DNA of 64,000 bases from Paenibacillus swuensis (GTDB taxonomy: Bacteria > Bacillota > Bacilli > Paenibacillales > DY6): the NCBI RefSeq assembly GCF_001644605.1, contig NZ_CP011388.1, forward strand, positions 1,845,001-1,909,000, read 5' to 3'. The notes below the pieces were generated by a model. It was given only the letters and a program-made list of their open reading frames with translations. It searched no databases and was not told where the DNA came from. Position 1 is the stretch's first letter. Each line of letters begins with the position of its first letter. Both the position numbers and the translations under genes were made by a program. Shown piece by piece: positions 36,512 to 41,415 of the stretch.

Positions 36512-36600
36512 GTTTAACAGGGCATTAAACCCATCCTCACACCACACTCTTGACGACTGGCGTCTAAGGTTTATTTCAACCCACAGCATGGCCGAGTGCC
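36512..36600 (-). ncRNA. Structured leader RNA in the epsB-epsC gap, EAR-like candidate
   Basis: On the minus strand GCACTC (36594-36599) can pair with GAGTGTG (36543-36549). Inside this are a hairpin GGTT/AACC (36568-36581) and a hairpin GACG-CCAGT-CGTC (36552-36564). A further hairpin, GTTTAA/TTAAAC (36512-36530), follows. Bacillus subtilis carries the eps-associated RNA (EAR), a processive antitermination element, exactly between epsB and epsC. Position and branched structure agree; identity was not tested against the family model. Confidence 0.6.
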
Positions 36601-36635
36601 TCCGCGGATAACGGCTAGGAGACATTCCCAACGAA

Positions 36636-36664
36636 ATATTCTTTATAACGAACGTTTGATTCAA
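36636..36664 (-). promoter_or_regulatory. Candidate internal promoter before epsC with embedded SinR-type box
   Basis: On the minus strand TTGAAT (36659-36664) and GAATAT (36636-36641) are 17 bp apart. The box GTTCGTTATAAAGAAT (36638-36653) occupies most of the spacer and part of the -10. The box is identical to the one in the femAB-sinR promoter. The hexamers are weaker than in the other two promoters. Confidence 0.6.
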
Positions 36665-36693: not shown

Positions 36694-37356
36694 CTATCTG
36701 TGCTTGTTCATGACGACGCCGATGACATTGGCTTTCACCCGTTCCAGCACTTTCTTCGCTTCCAGAGCGGCCGCTTTGTCTGTACGTCCGCTGTTGATGA
36801 CAAGAATTACGCCGTCGCATTGGTTAGCCATAATGGAAGTATCCGTAACCGTGAGGACGGAAGGACAATCGAACATCACCAGATCGTACCGTTCCCTGGC
36901 TTTGTGCAGCAAAATGTTGACGCCGTTCGAAGCGATTAACTCGGCTTCCCTGCCATGGACCGGTCCGCTGCACAACACATCCAGCCCGTGGATTTCCGTG
37001 TGACTGACGGCTTCGTGAAGAGTGAGCTTGCCTGTCAACATCCCGGATAGCCCGCTGACGTTCGGCACATTAAAGGTGACATGCAGCCTCGGTTTACTCA
37101 GATCCGCATCCACAAGCAGAACCCGATCTCCTCGCAAGGCCATGGAGACTGCCAGATTGACGGCTGTCGTTGTCTTGCCTTCGCCAATACCTGGAGAAGT
37201 GATGACCACGGATCGAACGGTTTGTTCACCTGCGAAAAACTTTATTTGATTGCGAATCGCCCGGTACTGCTCTGAAACCCGGGATTGTGGATTTACAAAC
37301 GTAAGCAAGTTTCTTTTCACTGCCGCTCTGCTAATACTAGGAACCAACGGTATCAC
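36694..37356 (-). CDS. epsB: Bacterial tyrosine kinase (CpsD/CapB/EpsB)
   Basis: A 220-residue cytoplasmic BY-kinase that phosphorylates proteins on tyrosine and controls polymer synthesis together with EpsA. Walker A is in SPGIGEGKTTTAVNL, Walker A' in RVLLVDADLSKPRLH and Walker B in YDLVMFDCPSV. Unusually, no tyrosine cluster is seen at the C terminus (ends ANVIGVVMNKHR), the usual autophosphorylation site. The start is a GTG at 37356, overlapping epsA by 20 bp. Confidence 0.92.
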   Translation of the reverse strand: MIPLVPSISRAAVKRNLLTFVNPQSRVSEQYRAIRNQIKFFAGEQTVRSVVITSPGIGEGKTTTAVNLAVSMALRGDRVLLVDADLSKPRLHVTFNVPNVSGLSGMLTGKLTLHEAVSHTEIHGLDVLCSGPVHGREAELIASNGVNILLHKARERYDLVMFDCPSVLTVTDTSIMANQCDGVILVINSGRTDKAAALEAKKVLERVKANVIGVVMNKHR

Positions 37357-38083
37357 CTCTCAGTCCTGCGGGGACGCTATTGCCTTTATTACGCCGAAAA
37401 TTCGTGTCCTTCTTCCGAATTCGCGAGACGGCCCCAAGGACAGGATAATCGAGCCATTGTTCCACATCCCGTTCCGTCTTTATGCTGTCATCCAGCGATT
37501 CCAGAAGAAAAATGATGCCGATGCCTAAGATCATACCTGCCAACAGGCTTAGGATAATCGTGCTTCTTCCGCTTGAAGTCAGCGGTTGAATCTCCGGAGG
37601 GGCAACAGCTTGGGAGAGTACTTTAATATCCGTAAAGTTCATTACCTTGGTAACGATTTCTTTATATTTCTCGATCGTGGTATTGGCGATCTTCGCAGCA
37701 AGAACAGGATCCGGATCCGCCACAGTTACGATCGCAACCAGGGAGTTATCTACGCTGGAAACTTGGATTTGATCCCGAAGCTCGCTTTCTGTAACCGGAA
37801 GGTTAAGCGCCTGAATCACTTGTTCCATGACCGCAGGCTCGCGAACCATCACTTTAAGTGTATTTAGCATTTCCGGTGTGGCTTTAATAACCACCCGTGT
37901 AGAGACTTCATACGTTGGAATTTCAGGTTTCATTTCATAAAGAACACCCAATGCAGTGAACACCGTCATGAACAGTAACATCATCCATATTCGACCTTTA
38001 ATCACAAGCCATAGTTGTTTCAGATTGATTTCTTTACCCGGAACAGGATTTGCTGTGTTGTGTAACGAGTTCGGATTCACCAT
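37337..38083 (-). CDS. epsA: Chain-length determinant / kinase activator (Wzz-CpsC-EpsA)
   Basis: A 248-residue membrane protein with two transmembrane helices, IWMMLLFMTVFTALGVLYEM near the N terminus and TIILSLLAGMILGIGIIFLL near the C terminus. An extracellular loop lies between them, and a cytoplasmic tail (ESLDDSIKTERDVEQWL) normally activates the partner kinase. It is the first gene of the eps operon. The ATG at 38083 follows AGGTGA; the GTG at 38092 lies inside that ribosome binding site. Confidence 0.92.
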   Translation of the reverse strand: MVNPNSLHNTANPVPGKEINLKQLWLVIKGRIWMMLLFMTVFTALGVLYEMKPEIPTYEVSTRVVIKATPEMLNTLKVMVREPAVMEQVIQALNLPVTESELRDQIQVSSVDNSLVAIVTVADPDPVLAAKIANTTIEKYKEIVTKVMNFTDIKVLSQAVAPPEIQPLTSSGRSTIILSLLAGMILGIGIIFLLESLDDSIKTERDVEQWLDYPVLGAVSRIRKKDTNFRRNKGNSVPAGLRGDTVGS

Positions 38084-38113
38084 AATGTTCACCTATGCCC
38101 TTAATTAAGTTTT

Positions 38114-38169
38114 GTTCTTTATAAAGAACTTAATACCCTCATGATAATTCTATATAACGAACAAGTCAA
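38114..38169 (-). promoter_or_regulatory. eps operon promoter with two SinR-type operators
   Basis: On the minus strand TTGACT (38164-38169) and TATCAT (38141-38146) are exactly 17 bp apart. The spacer is filled by GTTCGTTATATAGAAT (38147-38162). A second operator, the perfect palindrome GTTCTTTATAAAGAAC (38114-38129), lies just downstream near the expected transcription start. Bacillus subtilis SinR recognises GTTCTYT, so both sites fit repression by the SinR-like proteins encoded next door. Confidence 0.85.
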
Positions 38170-38188: not shown

Positions 38189-38545
38189 TCAGCTGTTTGA
38201 ACCTTCTTTATGTTCATTCCATTTTAAATATTGCAGATAATCTTTAAGTCGCCGAAAATCTTTCTTGCTCATTCCTTCGTCAATCGCTTTATGGATCAGG
38301 AACTTCCATTCATCATCCAACACTCCGTTAACTTCCAGCCTTGAGGAATAGGTATTTCCCAACAGGTACTCAATGGTGGTGTCCAGAGGCCCGGCAATCT
38401 TGGACAGCATCTGCAGGGATGGATTGTTCTGCAGTTCACGTTCGATGTAACTTAGATAGGATTTGGAAATCCCTGCGAGCTCCGCAAGTTCCGATATGGA
38501 ATAACCTTTACGTTTCCGCAGCTCCTTAATACGTTGTCCGATCAT
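38189..38545 (-). CDS. sinR: SinR-like biofilm repressor (copy 1)
   Basis: A 118-residue repressor. The N-terminal helix-turn-helix begins MIGQRIKELRKRKGYSISEL and contains AGISKSYLSYIERELQNNPS, nearly the sequence of Bacillus subtilis SinR. The C-terminal part (LDDEWKFLIHKAIDEGMSKK) matches the SinR dimerisation domain that binds SinI. The ATG at 38545 follows AAAAAGGAGAGCCTT; the frame extends uselessly to 38590. It is cotranscribed with the upstream FemAB-like gene from a promoter carrying its own type of operator, so autoregulation is likely, and it lies directly upstream of the eps promoter. Confidence 0.9.
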   Translation of the reverse strand: MIGQRIKELRKRKGYSISELAELAGISKSYLSYIERELQNNPSLQMLSKIAGPLDTTIEYLLGNTYSSRLEVNGVLDDEWKFLIHKAIDEGMSKKDFRRLKDYLQYLKWNEHKEGSNS

Positions 38546-38607
38546 AAGGCTCTCCTTTTTTTGGGGTTCCGCAGGCTTTGAGCCGTTCAACTAACTTGAA
38601 CATCAAC

Positions 38608-39690
38608 TTAAACGCGGGAATACGTGCTCACACCTAATGAAGAATGTCGATATAACGGAAAAAAGTTGTCTTGAACCTGAATCTGCCGTGTAAGCATTTC
38701 GTAAATTTCCGGATTGTGAACTTTGCGTCCGATGTAGAAATCCAGGGGAGCCTTCTTACTAAACGTGCTTTTGAAACGGAATAATTCATCATTACCGCCG
38801 TATCCCCCGCCGAGGTGCAAATATTTATATCCCAGGGATTTAAAGTAACTGGCTGCTTCGCAAATCAGCAGATTATACGGCGCGAACTTTAGATAATCTT
38901 TATCCGAACCGGTGAGATGATATGTAACGTAGTCATTGTAATGAAGGAAGAACGTTGAGGCAATGACACGGCCCTCATACCGGGCGACAAATAAACTAAC
39001 GTGCTGATCCAGTAATTGGACCAGGTCTCTAAAGTAGGGTTCCGAGAAGTAATAGTAGGGATGCGCGTGATTCTTATCCATGGTTGCGTAGTACAGTTCA
39101 ATAAAGTCTTTGATTTGCGCAGGATCTTCTCTGGACACGCGGACTCCGTTCTTCTGAGCATAACGCACTCGGTTCCTGCATCCGGAGGTTAAGCTATCGA
39201 TTACGTCTTCCCTGGACGATGTCAGATCCATGCACACCGTATTTCGGAGCGGCGTGGGCTGAACTCCGGAATAGTCTTTTTCGTTATGAAAGAGGGGGTG
39301 AAAACGCACAAATTCCGTAACGATCCCGACCATGCGGCAATACGCGCTAAATACTTCGCCAAAGCGTTCGAACAAGGATACGCGTTCCTCTTCGTCCTTT
39401 ACATTGCATAGCGGTCCGCCATAACCGTAAGGTGTAACAATATCGTACATATTGCGTTGAAGTTGCTTTACCTCCGGCAAATTTAAATCATTAATACTTC
39501 TCATCAAGAATGCATAACAAATTATGAATTGTTGCTCACGGTAAACGAACAGTCGGGCCATGCCCTCATTGTTGTTTTCCGCCATCGCGCAATATCCCGG
39601 AGAGTAGTAAATATCCGCTCCTCCTACCGAGCGAAGGGCGTCATTCCATTCTTCCGTCTGGGAAGTCATGAATACTTCATAACTAAACAT
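38608..39690 (-). CDS. FemAB/GNAT-like aminoacyl- or acetyltransferase
   Basis: A 360-residue protein of the FemAB-like double-GNAT fold: GCRNRVRYAQKNGVRVSRED, LYYATMDKNHAHPYYYFSEP, RVIASTFFLHYNDYVTYHLT and the end YKYLHLGGGYGGNDELFRFK. Relatives transfer amino acids to peptidoglycan precursors or acetylate sugars; here it may modify the exopolysaccharide, which is inferred from position. The start ATG 39690 is chosen over ATG 39744, which lies inside an operator. The promoter with SinR boxes is just upstream and sinR follows after 62 bp. Confidence 0.75.
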   Translation of the reverse strand: MFSYEVFMTSQTEEWNDALRSVGGADIYYSPGYCAMAENNNEGMARLFVYREQQFIICYAFLMRSINDLNLPEVKQLQRNMYDIVTPYGYGGPLCNVKDEEERVSLFERFGEVFSAYCRMVGIVTEFVRFHPLFHNEKDYSGVQPTPLRNTVCMDLTSSREDVIDSLTSGCRNRVRYAQKNGVRVSREDPAQIKDFIELYYATMDKNHAHPYYYFSEPYFRDLVQLLDQHVSLFVARYEGRVIASTFFLHYNDYVTYHLTGSDKDYLKFAPYNLLICEAASYFKSLGYKYLHLGGGYGGNDELFRFKSTFSKKAPLDFYIGRKVHNPEIYEMLTRQIQVQDNFFPLYRHSSLGVSTYSRV

Positions 39691-39726
39691 GGATCGCCCA
39701 CCCCAACCTATTCTAAAAATAGTTTC

Positions 39727-39832
39727 GTTCTTTAAAAAGAACATTTTGATTAAAAAAATAGGCGCTAATCAGCGTCCCATCCACTATCTAGTTTTATTTA
39801 CCTAGTTTAATTCTTTATAACGAACATGTCAA
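39727..39832 (-). promoter_or_regulatory. Promoter of femAB-like/sinR transcript with two SinR-type operators
   Basis: On the minus strand TTGACA (39827-39832) and TAAACT (39804-39809) are 17 bp apart, with GTTCGTTATAAAGAAT (39810-39825) filling the spacer exactly as in the eps promoter. A second operator, GTTCTTT-N2-AAAGAAC (39727-39742), lies about 60 bp downstream and 37 bp before the start codon. Confidence 0.83.
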
Positions 39833-39855: not shown

Positions 39856-40608
39856 TTATAAACATTTATGCATACGGACGTTAGTGCTTATTAAACCGGC
39901 TTTAAAGATGCATTTCCATTCCGGCTCAGGCGTTATGATCAACAAAGAACAATGAGGAAATACAGTTACGATCTCCTCAAGTTGATGATCTTGCAGCAGG
40001 TTTCCGCTCCCGCCTGTTATCACACGCAAATATTTACGATGCAAGCAAGCCATGTGAACCTGCCCTGAGTCCGTATCCATCGTGATCTGTGATAAGCCGT
40101 CATACATGTCCCAAGCTCGAAAGCCATTTACTTGCCGGGCATCCCGATCAGCAACAGGACTTTCAATCATATGCCAATAAGCATTGGTCCTGATCTGAAA
40201 ACCCAAAGCTTTATAAAGGTTCAACGCGTTATCATTCCATACGAAACAGTCCAATTGAACTTGAGAGACACCTTGTTCGCGGGCGATGTCAAACGTATCG
40301 GACAGAAGCCGGCCGCCGATTCCCTTGCCTCGGTCTTGCTGACTCACCGCGAAGTTATTAATAAACAGACCGTCCTCATTCATAAAGTACTCTATAAATC
40401 CAGTTAGGCGCGTGCCCTCGTAAGCGCCCATGAAACACGCGCCGGACGAAGAATTTTCAAGAAGGTCTGTGGTGTAAGCAACATATCCCGGACAAGAAAA
40501 TTTGGTTAAGTGAAACACAGATGGTTGAACCATGGACATCCACTGCTCGGTCCATGCAGGAATATACTTGGCATCTTGCTTATGTAAAGAGTATGTTACG
40601 ATCTTCAT
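39856..40608 (-). CDS. GNAT acetyltransferase with C-terminal extension
   Basis: A 250-residue protein with a canonical GNAT domain in residues 1-150. NNFAVSQQDRGKGIGGRLLS holds the acetyl-CoA-binding RGxGxG-type motif, and DNALNLYKALGFQI is motif B. About 95 further residues have no recognised family. Its ATG overlaps the stop of the SinI-like gene (ATGA), so both are translated from one riboswitch-controlled mRNA. The acceptor is unknown; EpsM-like acetylation of the amino sugar is possible but unproven, since EpsM has a different fold. Confidence 0.8.
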   Translation of the reverse strand: MKIVTYSLHKQDAKYIPAWTEQWMSMVQPSVFHLTKFSCPGYVAYTTDLLENSSSGACFMGAYEGTRLTGFIEYFMNEDGLFINNFAVSQQDRGKGIGGRLLSDTFDIAREQGVSQVQLDCFVWNDNALNLYKALGFQIRTNAYWHMIESPVADRDARQVNGFRAWDMYDGLSQITMDTDSGQVHMACLHRKYLRVITGGSGNLLQDHQLEEIVTVFPHCSLLIITPEPEWKCIFKAGLISTNVRMHKCL

Positions 40609-40757
40609 GGTCTAATGGGCTTTAACGATCCCTGCTGCTTGAATTCCGCGAGAAAGCTCCGGACTTCCTCAACGGTAATGCCGAGCTCATAGGCTGACTT
40701 TAATAAATCGATCCACTCTGGATCCATATCTTCTCTATTGATCTGGACGGCTTTCAT
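40605..40757 (-). CDS. sinI: SinI-like antirepressor (50 aa)
   Basis: A 50-residue protein too short for usual gene-length cutoffs. The core MDPEWIDLLKSAYELGITVE followed by EVRSFLAEFK matches Bacillus subtilis SinI (DQEWVELMVEAKEANISPEE then IRKYL) and the C-terminal dimerisation domains of both SinR-like proteins in the window (DDEWKFLIHKAIDEGMSKKD; DPQWYELVREAMNSGISKEQ). There is no DNA-binding domain. SinI works by displacing SinR subunits from the SinR tetramer. The ATG at 40757 follows GGGGAGGATAAAC, and the stop overlaps the GNAT start as ATGA. A c-di-GMP riboswitch forms its leader. Confidence 0.88.
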   Translation of the reverse strand: MKAVQINREDMDPEWIDLLKSAYELGITVEEVRSFLAEFKQQGSLKPIRP

Positions 40758-40782
40758 GTTTATCCTCCCCAATGTAAAACAC

Positions 40783-40873
40783 GGATACCAAGCAATCCAG
40801 CTGTCTTAGTCAGGATACAACTTTAAGACCTGTGACTTTGCGTCCCTGCTTTTCAGTCAGGTTTGCCCTACGG
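40783..40873 (-). ncRNA. Cyclic-di-GMP class I riboswitch (GEMM-I)
   Basis: Read on the minus strand, the leader of the SinI-like gene shows the GEMM-I core in order. GGGCAAACC comes first, then a stem CCUG-A-CU closed by a GAAA tetraloop and AG-CAGG, the hallmark GGGACGCAAAG, then CACAGGUCUUAAAG and a second hairpin, and finally AAGACAGCUGGAUUGC. This is the conserved skeleton of class I c-di-GMP aptamers, including the tetraloop and its receptor side. The Shine-Dalgarno AGGAUA (40761-40766) can pair with UAUCCU inside the aptamer (40812-40817) or with UAUCC just after it (40783-40787), suggesting control of translation; the sign of control cannot be decided. Confidence 0.93.
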
Positions 40874-41076
40874 TTATTTCTACGTATATGATACTAGCTG
40901 TATGGTGAAAAGTATGTCGATTTTTATTGTCTAAAAATGTATTTTTTTACCGATATTATGAAGCGGTTACATTTCTTCCGTTAACCTATTGTTAATTAAA
41001 ACTTTTTCAGGTAACCTTGTGACAAATGCTCTGTTTGAAATGTAATTAAAAATCCCAAAAAAAGGATCGATTCTAC
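40874..41076. promoter_or_regulatory. Divergent control region between sinI-like and second sinR-like genes
   Basis: An AT-rich region without a gene. It contains a perfect inverted repeat ATTTTTA/TAAAAAT (40920-40926 and 40932-40938) around TTGTC, and next to it ATCGACA on the minus strand, one mismatch from the Spo0A box TTCGACA. It must hold the promoter of the riboswitch transcript (minus) and of the sinR-like gene 2 (plus). No GTTCTTT-type SinR box is present. Confidence 0.5.
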
Positions 41077-41415
41077 ATGATAGGACAACGGATTAAGAAT
41101 TATCGGTTATCGAAGAAGCTGTCCCTATCGGAACTGGCTGAGCGCGCTGGTGTCGCCAAGTCATATCTTAGCAATATGGAACGGGACATTCAGACCAACC
41201 CCTCTATTCAGTTCCTTGAGAAGATTGCCGATGCGCTTGACGTGACTGTTGATGATCTGCTGAACCCTATTCAGAAGCCGGAATCATCCGAAGTTGATCC
41301 CGACATGGATCCCCAATGGTACGAACTCGTCCGTGAAGCTATGAATTCCGGCATTAGCAAGGAACAGTTCAAGGAGTTTCTGGAATTCACACAATGGAAG
41401 ATGAATAATAAATGA
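41077..41415 (+). CDS. SinR-like repressor (copy 2)
   Basis: A 112-residue protein even closer to Bacillus subtilis SinR in sequence and length than copy 1. MIGQRIKNYRLSKKLSLSEL, AGVAKSYLSNMERDIQTNPS and IQFLEKIADALDVTVDDLL form the DNA-binding half. MDPQWYELVREAMNSGISKE and FKEFLEFTQWK form the SinI-binding half. Recognition-helix residues of the two copies are nearly the same, so both may bind the same GTTCTTT-type boxes. Its ribosome binding site (AAAGGATCG) is weak. Transcribed away from the sinI-like gene; 13 bp separate it from the phosphoesterase gene. Confidence 0.9.
   Translation: MIGQRIKNYRLSKKLSLSELAERAGVAKSYLSNMERDIQTNPSIQFLEKIADALDVTVDDLLNPIQKPESSEVDPDMDPQWYELVREAMNSGISKEQFKEFLEFTQWKMNNK

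Follow-up and report, generated by a model that had tools for sequence, protein, structure and literature searches.

The choice between SinI and SinR in Bacillus subtilis is the textbook switch for matrix production, and c-di-GMP generally favours matrix. To our knowledge, the B. subtilis switch is not wired to this second messenger by RNA. In this organism sinI is under the control of Spo0A, and SinR recognizes the consensus GTTCTYT, with inverted repeats of it being bound more tightly (PMC3163267). In Bacillus thuringiensis, high c-di-GMP accompanies higher sinI expression, with a riboswitch on sinI going unmentioned in the accessible part of that paper, which also tabulates one 'off' and one 'on' case of c-di-GMP riboswitches (PMC7793685). 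An RNA-seq table for Bacillus methanolicus MGA3 lists '(c-di-GMP)-sinI' (Irla et al. 2015, PMC4342826), and a 2023 paper proposes an antisense c-di-GMP-I riboswitch acting on P40081_02330, a SinR homologue of Paenibacillus sp. FSL P4, with the orientation of the riboswitch being taken from the KEGG gene annotation (PMC9943018). The riboswitch-sinI link is therefore partly in print already, as far as the accessible portions of these papers go, and a preliminary description of the locus studied here, which knew of no described case, has to be corrected on this point. Within the literature that we covered, which mostly excludes subscription papers, we found no mechanism, class II case or survey of this link.

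The window analysed here is a stretch of 64,000 nucleotides from Paenibacillus swuensis, in which the preliminary description had called a c-di-GMP riboswitch of class I upstream of a SinI-like antirepressor gene. A covariance search of the whole window (cmscan) with the GEMM-I model RF01051 (c-di-GMP-I) confirmed this call by a significant, full-length match (model 1-87 of 87) on the minus strand at 40877-40788, scoring 61.6 bits with an E-value of 1.3e-9 against a gathering score of 35 bits. The aptamer as originally placed (40783-40873) thus stands, with its coordinates being off by about 5 nt relative to the Rfam boundaries (40788-40877). It lies in the predicted 5' leader of the sinI-like gene, on the same strand, with 30 nt separating its end from the ATG. 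From our reading of the sequence, the P1 stem would be formed by the 5' strand AUAACC (40872-40877, minus) and its partner GGUAU (40785-40789). The adjoining UAUCC (40783-40787, minus), which has UAU in common with the 3' strand of P1, could pair with GGAUA (40761-40765), which overlaps the Shine-Dalgarno sequence, as judged from the letters and a short-transcript fold. On reading the leader we also noticed that UAUCCU of an aptamer loop is complementary to AGGAUA at the Shine-Dalgarno sequence.

Comparison of 16 leaders from 12 genera points to a conserved RNA structure: none of the 176 cells of the aptamer pairs is non-canonical and both sides have changed in 6 of 11 pairs, including C-G/U-A/A-U at a single pair, in an alignment that leans towards structure because the script located stems via patterns presupposing some stem letters. 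The host genome encodes 11 GGDEF and 7 EAL domain matches, and c-di-GMP turnover is therefore to be expected in it. It holds five c-di-GMP-I matches, among which the sinI-leader aptamer has the second-lowest score (61.6 bits). That score, along with the existence of GEMM-I RNAs that prefer 3',3'-cGAMP, would be in line with the aptamer being a relic or a sensor of another cyclic dinucleotide, with no c-di-GMP circuit operating here. We regard this as very improbable in view of the full-length match well above the cut-off, the compensatory changes kept in the 16 leaders, the complement of GGDEF and EAL domains, and the presence of class II c-di-GMP riboswitches at the same place in one genome (G035) and upstream of sinI in another (G016). 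Only one of the other four host riboswitches (L001), situated ahead of an S-layer-like gene as judged by eye, carries the search pattern.

The sinI-like gene (40605-40757, minus) encodes 50 amino acids and is preceded by the Shine-Dalgarno sequence GGGGAGG (40764-40770, minus), 6 nt ahead of its ATG. Its product matches PF08671 (SinI) with 41.7 bits over a cut-off of 31.4, which bears out the SinI-like identity first proposed for it, and consists of a SinI-type dimerisation domain with no helix-turn-helix (HTH) match in Pfam. With NF046031, the equivalog model for SinI of Bacillus, it scores 34.4 bits, under the cut-off of 80, and we accordingly term it SinI-like and not an equivalog of B. subtilis SinI. 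It also matches SinI in the PDB (1b0n_B) with an E-value of 0.0025, in a search in which repeat proteins lacking a passing stretch attain lower E-values. The start of the next gene, a GNAT acetyltransferase (39856-40608, minus; ORF and Pfam), overlaps the stop of sinI in the tetranucleotide ATGA, on account of which the two are probably co-translated. Searches of 5.8 billion protein sequences with the window SinI (E<=1e-3, 2 candidates) and the window GNAT protein (E<=1e-15, 207 candidates) returned the window's own proteins only, and a first scan of genome contigs with the window SinI as query gave no match.

On the opposite strand, and divergent from sinI, lies a gene for a SinR-like repressor (41077-41415, plus), in which Pfam detects an HTH_3 domain followed by a C-terminal SinI-type dimerisation domain, the architecture of SinR repressors; its best match among solved structures is B. 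subtilis SinR (1b0n_A, E 3.2e-37, residues 1-111, almost the full length). In the direction of sinI and the GNAT gene there follow a FemAB/GNAT-like gene (38608-39744, minus; Pfam; with an alternative ATG start possible at 39690), a second SinR/SlrR-like gene (38189-38590, minus; Pfam; 46% identical to the divergent one), epsA/epsB-like genes for a chain-length determinant and a tyrosine kinase (36694-38092, minus; ORFs, Pfam and NCBIfam), the epsC RNA or EAR element (36519-36630, minus; RF01735, 105 bits), whose function is processive antitermination, and a large polysaccharide gene. The SinR boxes that the preliminary description had placed in the eps promoter are well supported: allowing up to 2 mismatches, GTTCKTTWTAAAGAA has 9 strand-matches at five places in the window against 0.47 expected, a count reached in none of 100 shuffles (both strands), and GTTCTTTATAAAGAAC is a predicted SinR-type operator of the window. 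By this pattern scan, two putative operators precede the FemAB-like gene, one (39811-39825, minus) in the spacer of a promoter-like site at 39832-39804 and a second at 39728-39742 (minus); two precede the epsA-like gene, one (38148-38162, minus, 1 mismatch) in the spacer of a promoter-like site at 38169-38141 and the other a palindrome (38114-38129, minus); and one lies between the epsB-like gene and the epsC RNA (36639-36653, minus). These predicted operators are distributed over three transcription units, and none of the 9 matches is upstream of sinI. The second SinR/SlrR-like gene itself stands among the genes with SinR-type operators, and the repressor family may feed back on itself. Between the operator-bearing promoter-like site and the FemAB-like gene we noted by eye an inverted repeat followed by a T run (39752-39778, minus), a possible attenuator that the terminator scan of the window does not list.

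A c-di-GMP riboswitch in front of sinI recurs across the Bacilli. We searched 98-99 genomes of Paenibacillales, including the host, which is the sole genome of its family among the relatives drawn, for c-di-GMP-I, c-di-GMP-II and SinI domains, and scanned the resulting loci with Rfam. A same-strand upstream c-di-GMP riboswitch is found for 20 of 37 sinI-like genes lacking an HTH, in 19 of 32 genomes; the 37 genes are the sum of 23, 6 and 8, with 12 longer-frame PF08671 matches elsewhere in those genomes left out and with four SinR-sized frames beside a riboswitch-bearing sinI (G059, G072, G074 and G088) omitted from the HTH check. The remaining 17 of the 37 have no riboswitch at the gathering score. 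Among the 20 riboswitches 17 are of class I, their aptamers lying 60-90 nt from the SinI domain, and 3 of class II, two of them in G035 (at 60 and 51 nt) and one in G016 (at 326 nt); both class II matches of G035 (L074 and L075) precede SinI-like genes. When named genomes were scanned with five SinI queries from Paenibacillus, a class I riboswitch was present at 25 of 25 loci, 24 titled Paenibacillus and one Bacillus sp., with at least 4 of the genomes also belonging to the 98-genome set. Outside the order, the SinI domain is preceded by a class I riboswitch at a distance of 52-74 nt in at least 10 genomes belonging to six families, these being places picked by eye among the matches listed for 43 SinI-bearing genomes of the class and not a rate.

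Some of these loci have neighbours of their own. In G051, one neighbour of sinR belongs to the camelysin family (PF12389, 260.8 bits), of which TasA is a member, and the other resembles a signal peptidase by eye, with no Pfam match; the next ORF has at its 5' end two SinR-like palindromes (with 1 mismatch permitted) against 0.23 expected, with at least 2 occurring in 11 of 200 shuffles. In G062, the riboswitch-sinI pair (L081) is followed by a gene that by eye encodes a cell-wall-anchored-like protein and by a sortase gene (PF04203). At L153 of G247, and likewise in G237 and G266, a SinR-sized frame containing a SinI domain is closely followed, on its own strand, by a class I riboswitch.

In the Paenibacillus-type loci sinR is convergent, with its 3' end facing the riboswitch, the geometry that was scored as antisense in PMC9943018, and one might accordingly suppose that it acts in antisense on the neighbouring sinR, with sinI being incidental. 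This we hold to be the least probable of the alternatives, with hardly any weight of its own: all 45 class I aptamers are followed at 26-41 nt by a sinI-like ORF; the leader transcript of the window does not cross sinR, which is divergent there; and about 4 kb separate the sinI with the riboswitch from the sinR-like match in G037, G076 and G090. Judging from comparable Paenibacillus loci, we think that the riboswitch described in the accessible part of PMC9943018 would be the sense leader of an overlooked sinI. Short antirepressor genes of this kind may be overlooked when they begin with TTG, the start in 26 of the 27 distinct Paenibacillus sinI-like genes.

The aptamer very probably controls sinI. 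With start codons as we assigned them, the distance of 26-41 nt from aptamer to start holds over 45 class I leaders, 39 of them distinct. A terminator-like pattern occurs between aptamer and start in only 4 of the 45, each time as the Shine-Dalgarno hairpin itself, and none of the 45 has a convincing terminator in this interval. Both the short spacing and the nature of these patterns make translational control the most likely mode. Transcriptional attenuation at the window sinI was considered and rejected, the scan having returned no terminator-like site between aptamer and ATG; a weak site that the scan does list, at 40724-40710 on both strands, is located within the sinI coding sequence.

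The ligand stabilises P1 in class I structures. If pairing of P1 and pairing of the Shine-Dalgarno/start region exclude one another, the ligand would therefore turn translation on. We excised the segment that runs from the 3' strand of P1 to codon 8, leaving out the aptamer, and compared its folding with that of dinucleotide shuffles, using one leader of our choice for each of 12 genera. The minimum-energy fold pairs letters of the P1 3' strand with the Shine-Dalgarno/start region in 11 of the 12, as in CCUGAAAUAC/GUAUUUUAGG, where the last letters are the Shine-Dalgarno sequence. The segment is more stable than shuffles (p<=0.05) in 7 of 12 genera, with a combined p of 2.6e-6, the representatives being in part favourable ones (p is 0.002 for L143, against 0.083 and 0.223 for L147 and L148 of its genus). 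In a second run p<=0.05 was obtained for 24 of 34 distinct segments, most of them close relatives, with L150 shifting from 0.046 in one run to 0.056 in the other. The segments of G062 and G004 are unremarkable (p 0.535 and 0.772), and so is that of the window, which is no more stable than shuffles (z +1.24, p 0.916; 0.93 in the second run). In the window leader, -20 to +18 costs as much to open with aptamer and P1 forced as before (11.3 to 11.2 kcal/mol). Folds of the window leader vary with the position of the 3' cut, for which reason we draw no sign from this leader alone.

In the Paenibacillus-type leaders the coding sequence itself appears as a candidate pairing partner. Here CCUGGGGAC of P1 can pair with GUCC-AA-CCAGG, which spans codons 3-7 of sinI. 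Codons 4-6 read TCC, AAC and CAG in all 27 distinct Paenibacillus genes, against two to four codons at each of the 8 other residues that are invariant yet open to synonymous change in the columns compared; the genus (g10) of the named Paenibacillus loci was assumed from likeness. In G037, G076 and G090, which belong to another genus, GUCC and CCAGG are kept and the letters between them vary. The N-terminus of Paenibacillus SinI resembles that of the L113 gene, which has no riboswitch, and the codon conservation may therefore be due in part to the protein and in part to the RNA. The energy of the duplex between the 3' strand and the coding sequence falls below synonymous-codon shuffles (p<=0.05) for one leader out of 10, and for none of the 10 does it fall below letter shuffles. 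With the bound state forced, opening becomes easier for -20 to +18 (14.3 to 12.7; 17 of 28 Paenibacillus-type leaders) and for +3 to +21 (9.6 to 7.7; 23 of 28). Forcing the aptamer without P1 had little effect and caused no consistent change.

These calculations bear on the opposite sign, namely an OFF switch in which the ligand would hide the ribosome-binding site, with SinI being lowered and SinR repression tightened. When the bound state is forced on Paenibacillus-type leaders, the interval from Shine-Dalgarno to start is not easier but slightly costlier to open (7.20 to 7.53, with a lower cost in 8 of 27; L037, L076 and L114 were dropped as they have no P1 motif), the folds of the window itself do not favour ON, and c-di-GMP riboswitches of both signs are known, as the accessible table of PMC7793685 attests. 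Against this stand the alternative pairing that involves the 3' strand of P1, which recurs in 11 of 12 genera and outdoes shuffles in 7, and the class II leader L054, in which a 7-bp terminator stem reuses the 3' end of the aptamer and hence competes with it. The general tendency of c-di-GMP to favour matrix also argues against an OFF switch, which we deem unlikely. The L054 stem, which has a loop of 11 that exceeds the limit of the terminator scan and is absent from its listing, is predicted to give ON; our class II platform reading comes from this leader, with the two class II leaders of G035 left out. By homology with the relatives we therefore predict the ON sign for the window as the likely one.

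The leader has a promoter-like site (TCGACA, 18 nt, TAGTAT; 40891-40920, minus) with 9 of 12 consensus letters, from a scan in which such sites are about as numerous as in shuffles (19 versus 16.4). Its -35 element overlaps ATCGACA (40915-40921, minus), one mismatch from TTCGACA, a Spo0A-box-like heptamer consensus. We observed ATCGACA again ahead of several sinI leaders from Paenibacillus and other Bacilli. A scan for Spo0A-type boxes found them in 10 of 18 leaders, many of these being close relatives, against a mean of 3.4 and a maximum of 9 in shuffles. A Spo0A-type box is hence a possible second input to the sinI leader.

Given the aptamer, the genes of SinI and SinR type, the SinR-type operators and the recurrence of a riboswitch before sinI across the Bacilli, we consider a path in which c-di-GMP raises SinI, SinI inhibits SinR and SinR represses matrix genes to be plausible. 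The direct path to matrix production proposed in the preliminary description remains sound as a proposal, with the ON sign coming from the relatives and not from the window leader alone. In the reading that we favour as rather probable, a translational ON switch raises SinI and relieves SinR-like repression of the FemAB-like and eps operons. Here the aptamer would be stabilised by c-di-GMP together with its P1 stem. Going by the relatives, P1 and a sequestered Shine-Dalgarno/start region would be mutually exclusive; the ribosome-binding site would be freed and SinI would rise; and SinI, following the B. subtilis paradigm, would titrate the SinR-like repressor, which would then leave the FemAB-like and eps matrix operons downstream. 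A more encompassing proposal, to which we give slightly less than even chances, is that of a recurrent matrix switch of the Bacilli, which would have been built on at least two occasions, from the unrelated aptamer classes I and II. The first part of the sinI mRNA (in Paenibacillus including codons 4-6) would provide the OFF hairpin to be opened by c-di-GMP, a Spo0A-type box retained at the promoter would make for a two-input gate, and the published 'antisense' case would be a sense leader.

The riboswitch-sinI pair of the window belongs to a recurrent, predicted connection between c-di-GMP and the SinI/SinR matrix switch that has attracted little notice. In the window, as in many of the sampled Bacilli, c-di-GMP appears to enter this switch at the mRNA of the antirepressor. 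This would explain how c-di-GMP could act on matrix genes of the eps and tasA type with no protein receptor dedicated to it, in a compact and testable circuit that also offers a correction to the antisense-riboswitch reading, as far as the accessible part of that paper allows (PMC9943018).

Among the known systems, B. methanolicus MGA3 shares with the window a predicted c-di-GMP riboswitch in the 5' UTR of sinI, described there as the SinR antagonist; in the accessible part of the paper the case consists of one table row and one sentence, and the sign, mechanism, SinR operators and wider distribution are not given (PMC4342826). The accessible text on the Paenibacillus case has the same riboswitch class, regulator family and genus as the Paenibacillus loci studied here, but reads the riboswitch as antisense on a sinR homologue, whereas in our loci a sense sinI-like ORF follows the aptamer (PMC9943018). 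The Bc1 and Bc2 riboswitches of B. thuringiensis are, like that of the window, c-di-GMP riboswitches in 5' UTRs of Bacilli; in the portions of the reports open to us, Bc1 differs in having a long platform with two terminators, and Bc2 in preceding a collagen-adhesion gene and not an antirepressor (PMC11218506, PMC4933901). The 14 control genomes, B. subtilis among them, gave no c-di-GMP-I match, in contrast to the window host. With the sinI-sinR-eps circuit of B. subtilis, as set out in the accessible part of its description, the window has in common the SinI and SinR families, operators of the GTTCTYT type and the eps genes (PMC3163267).
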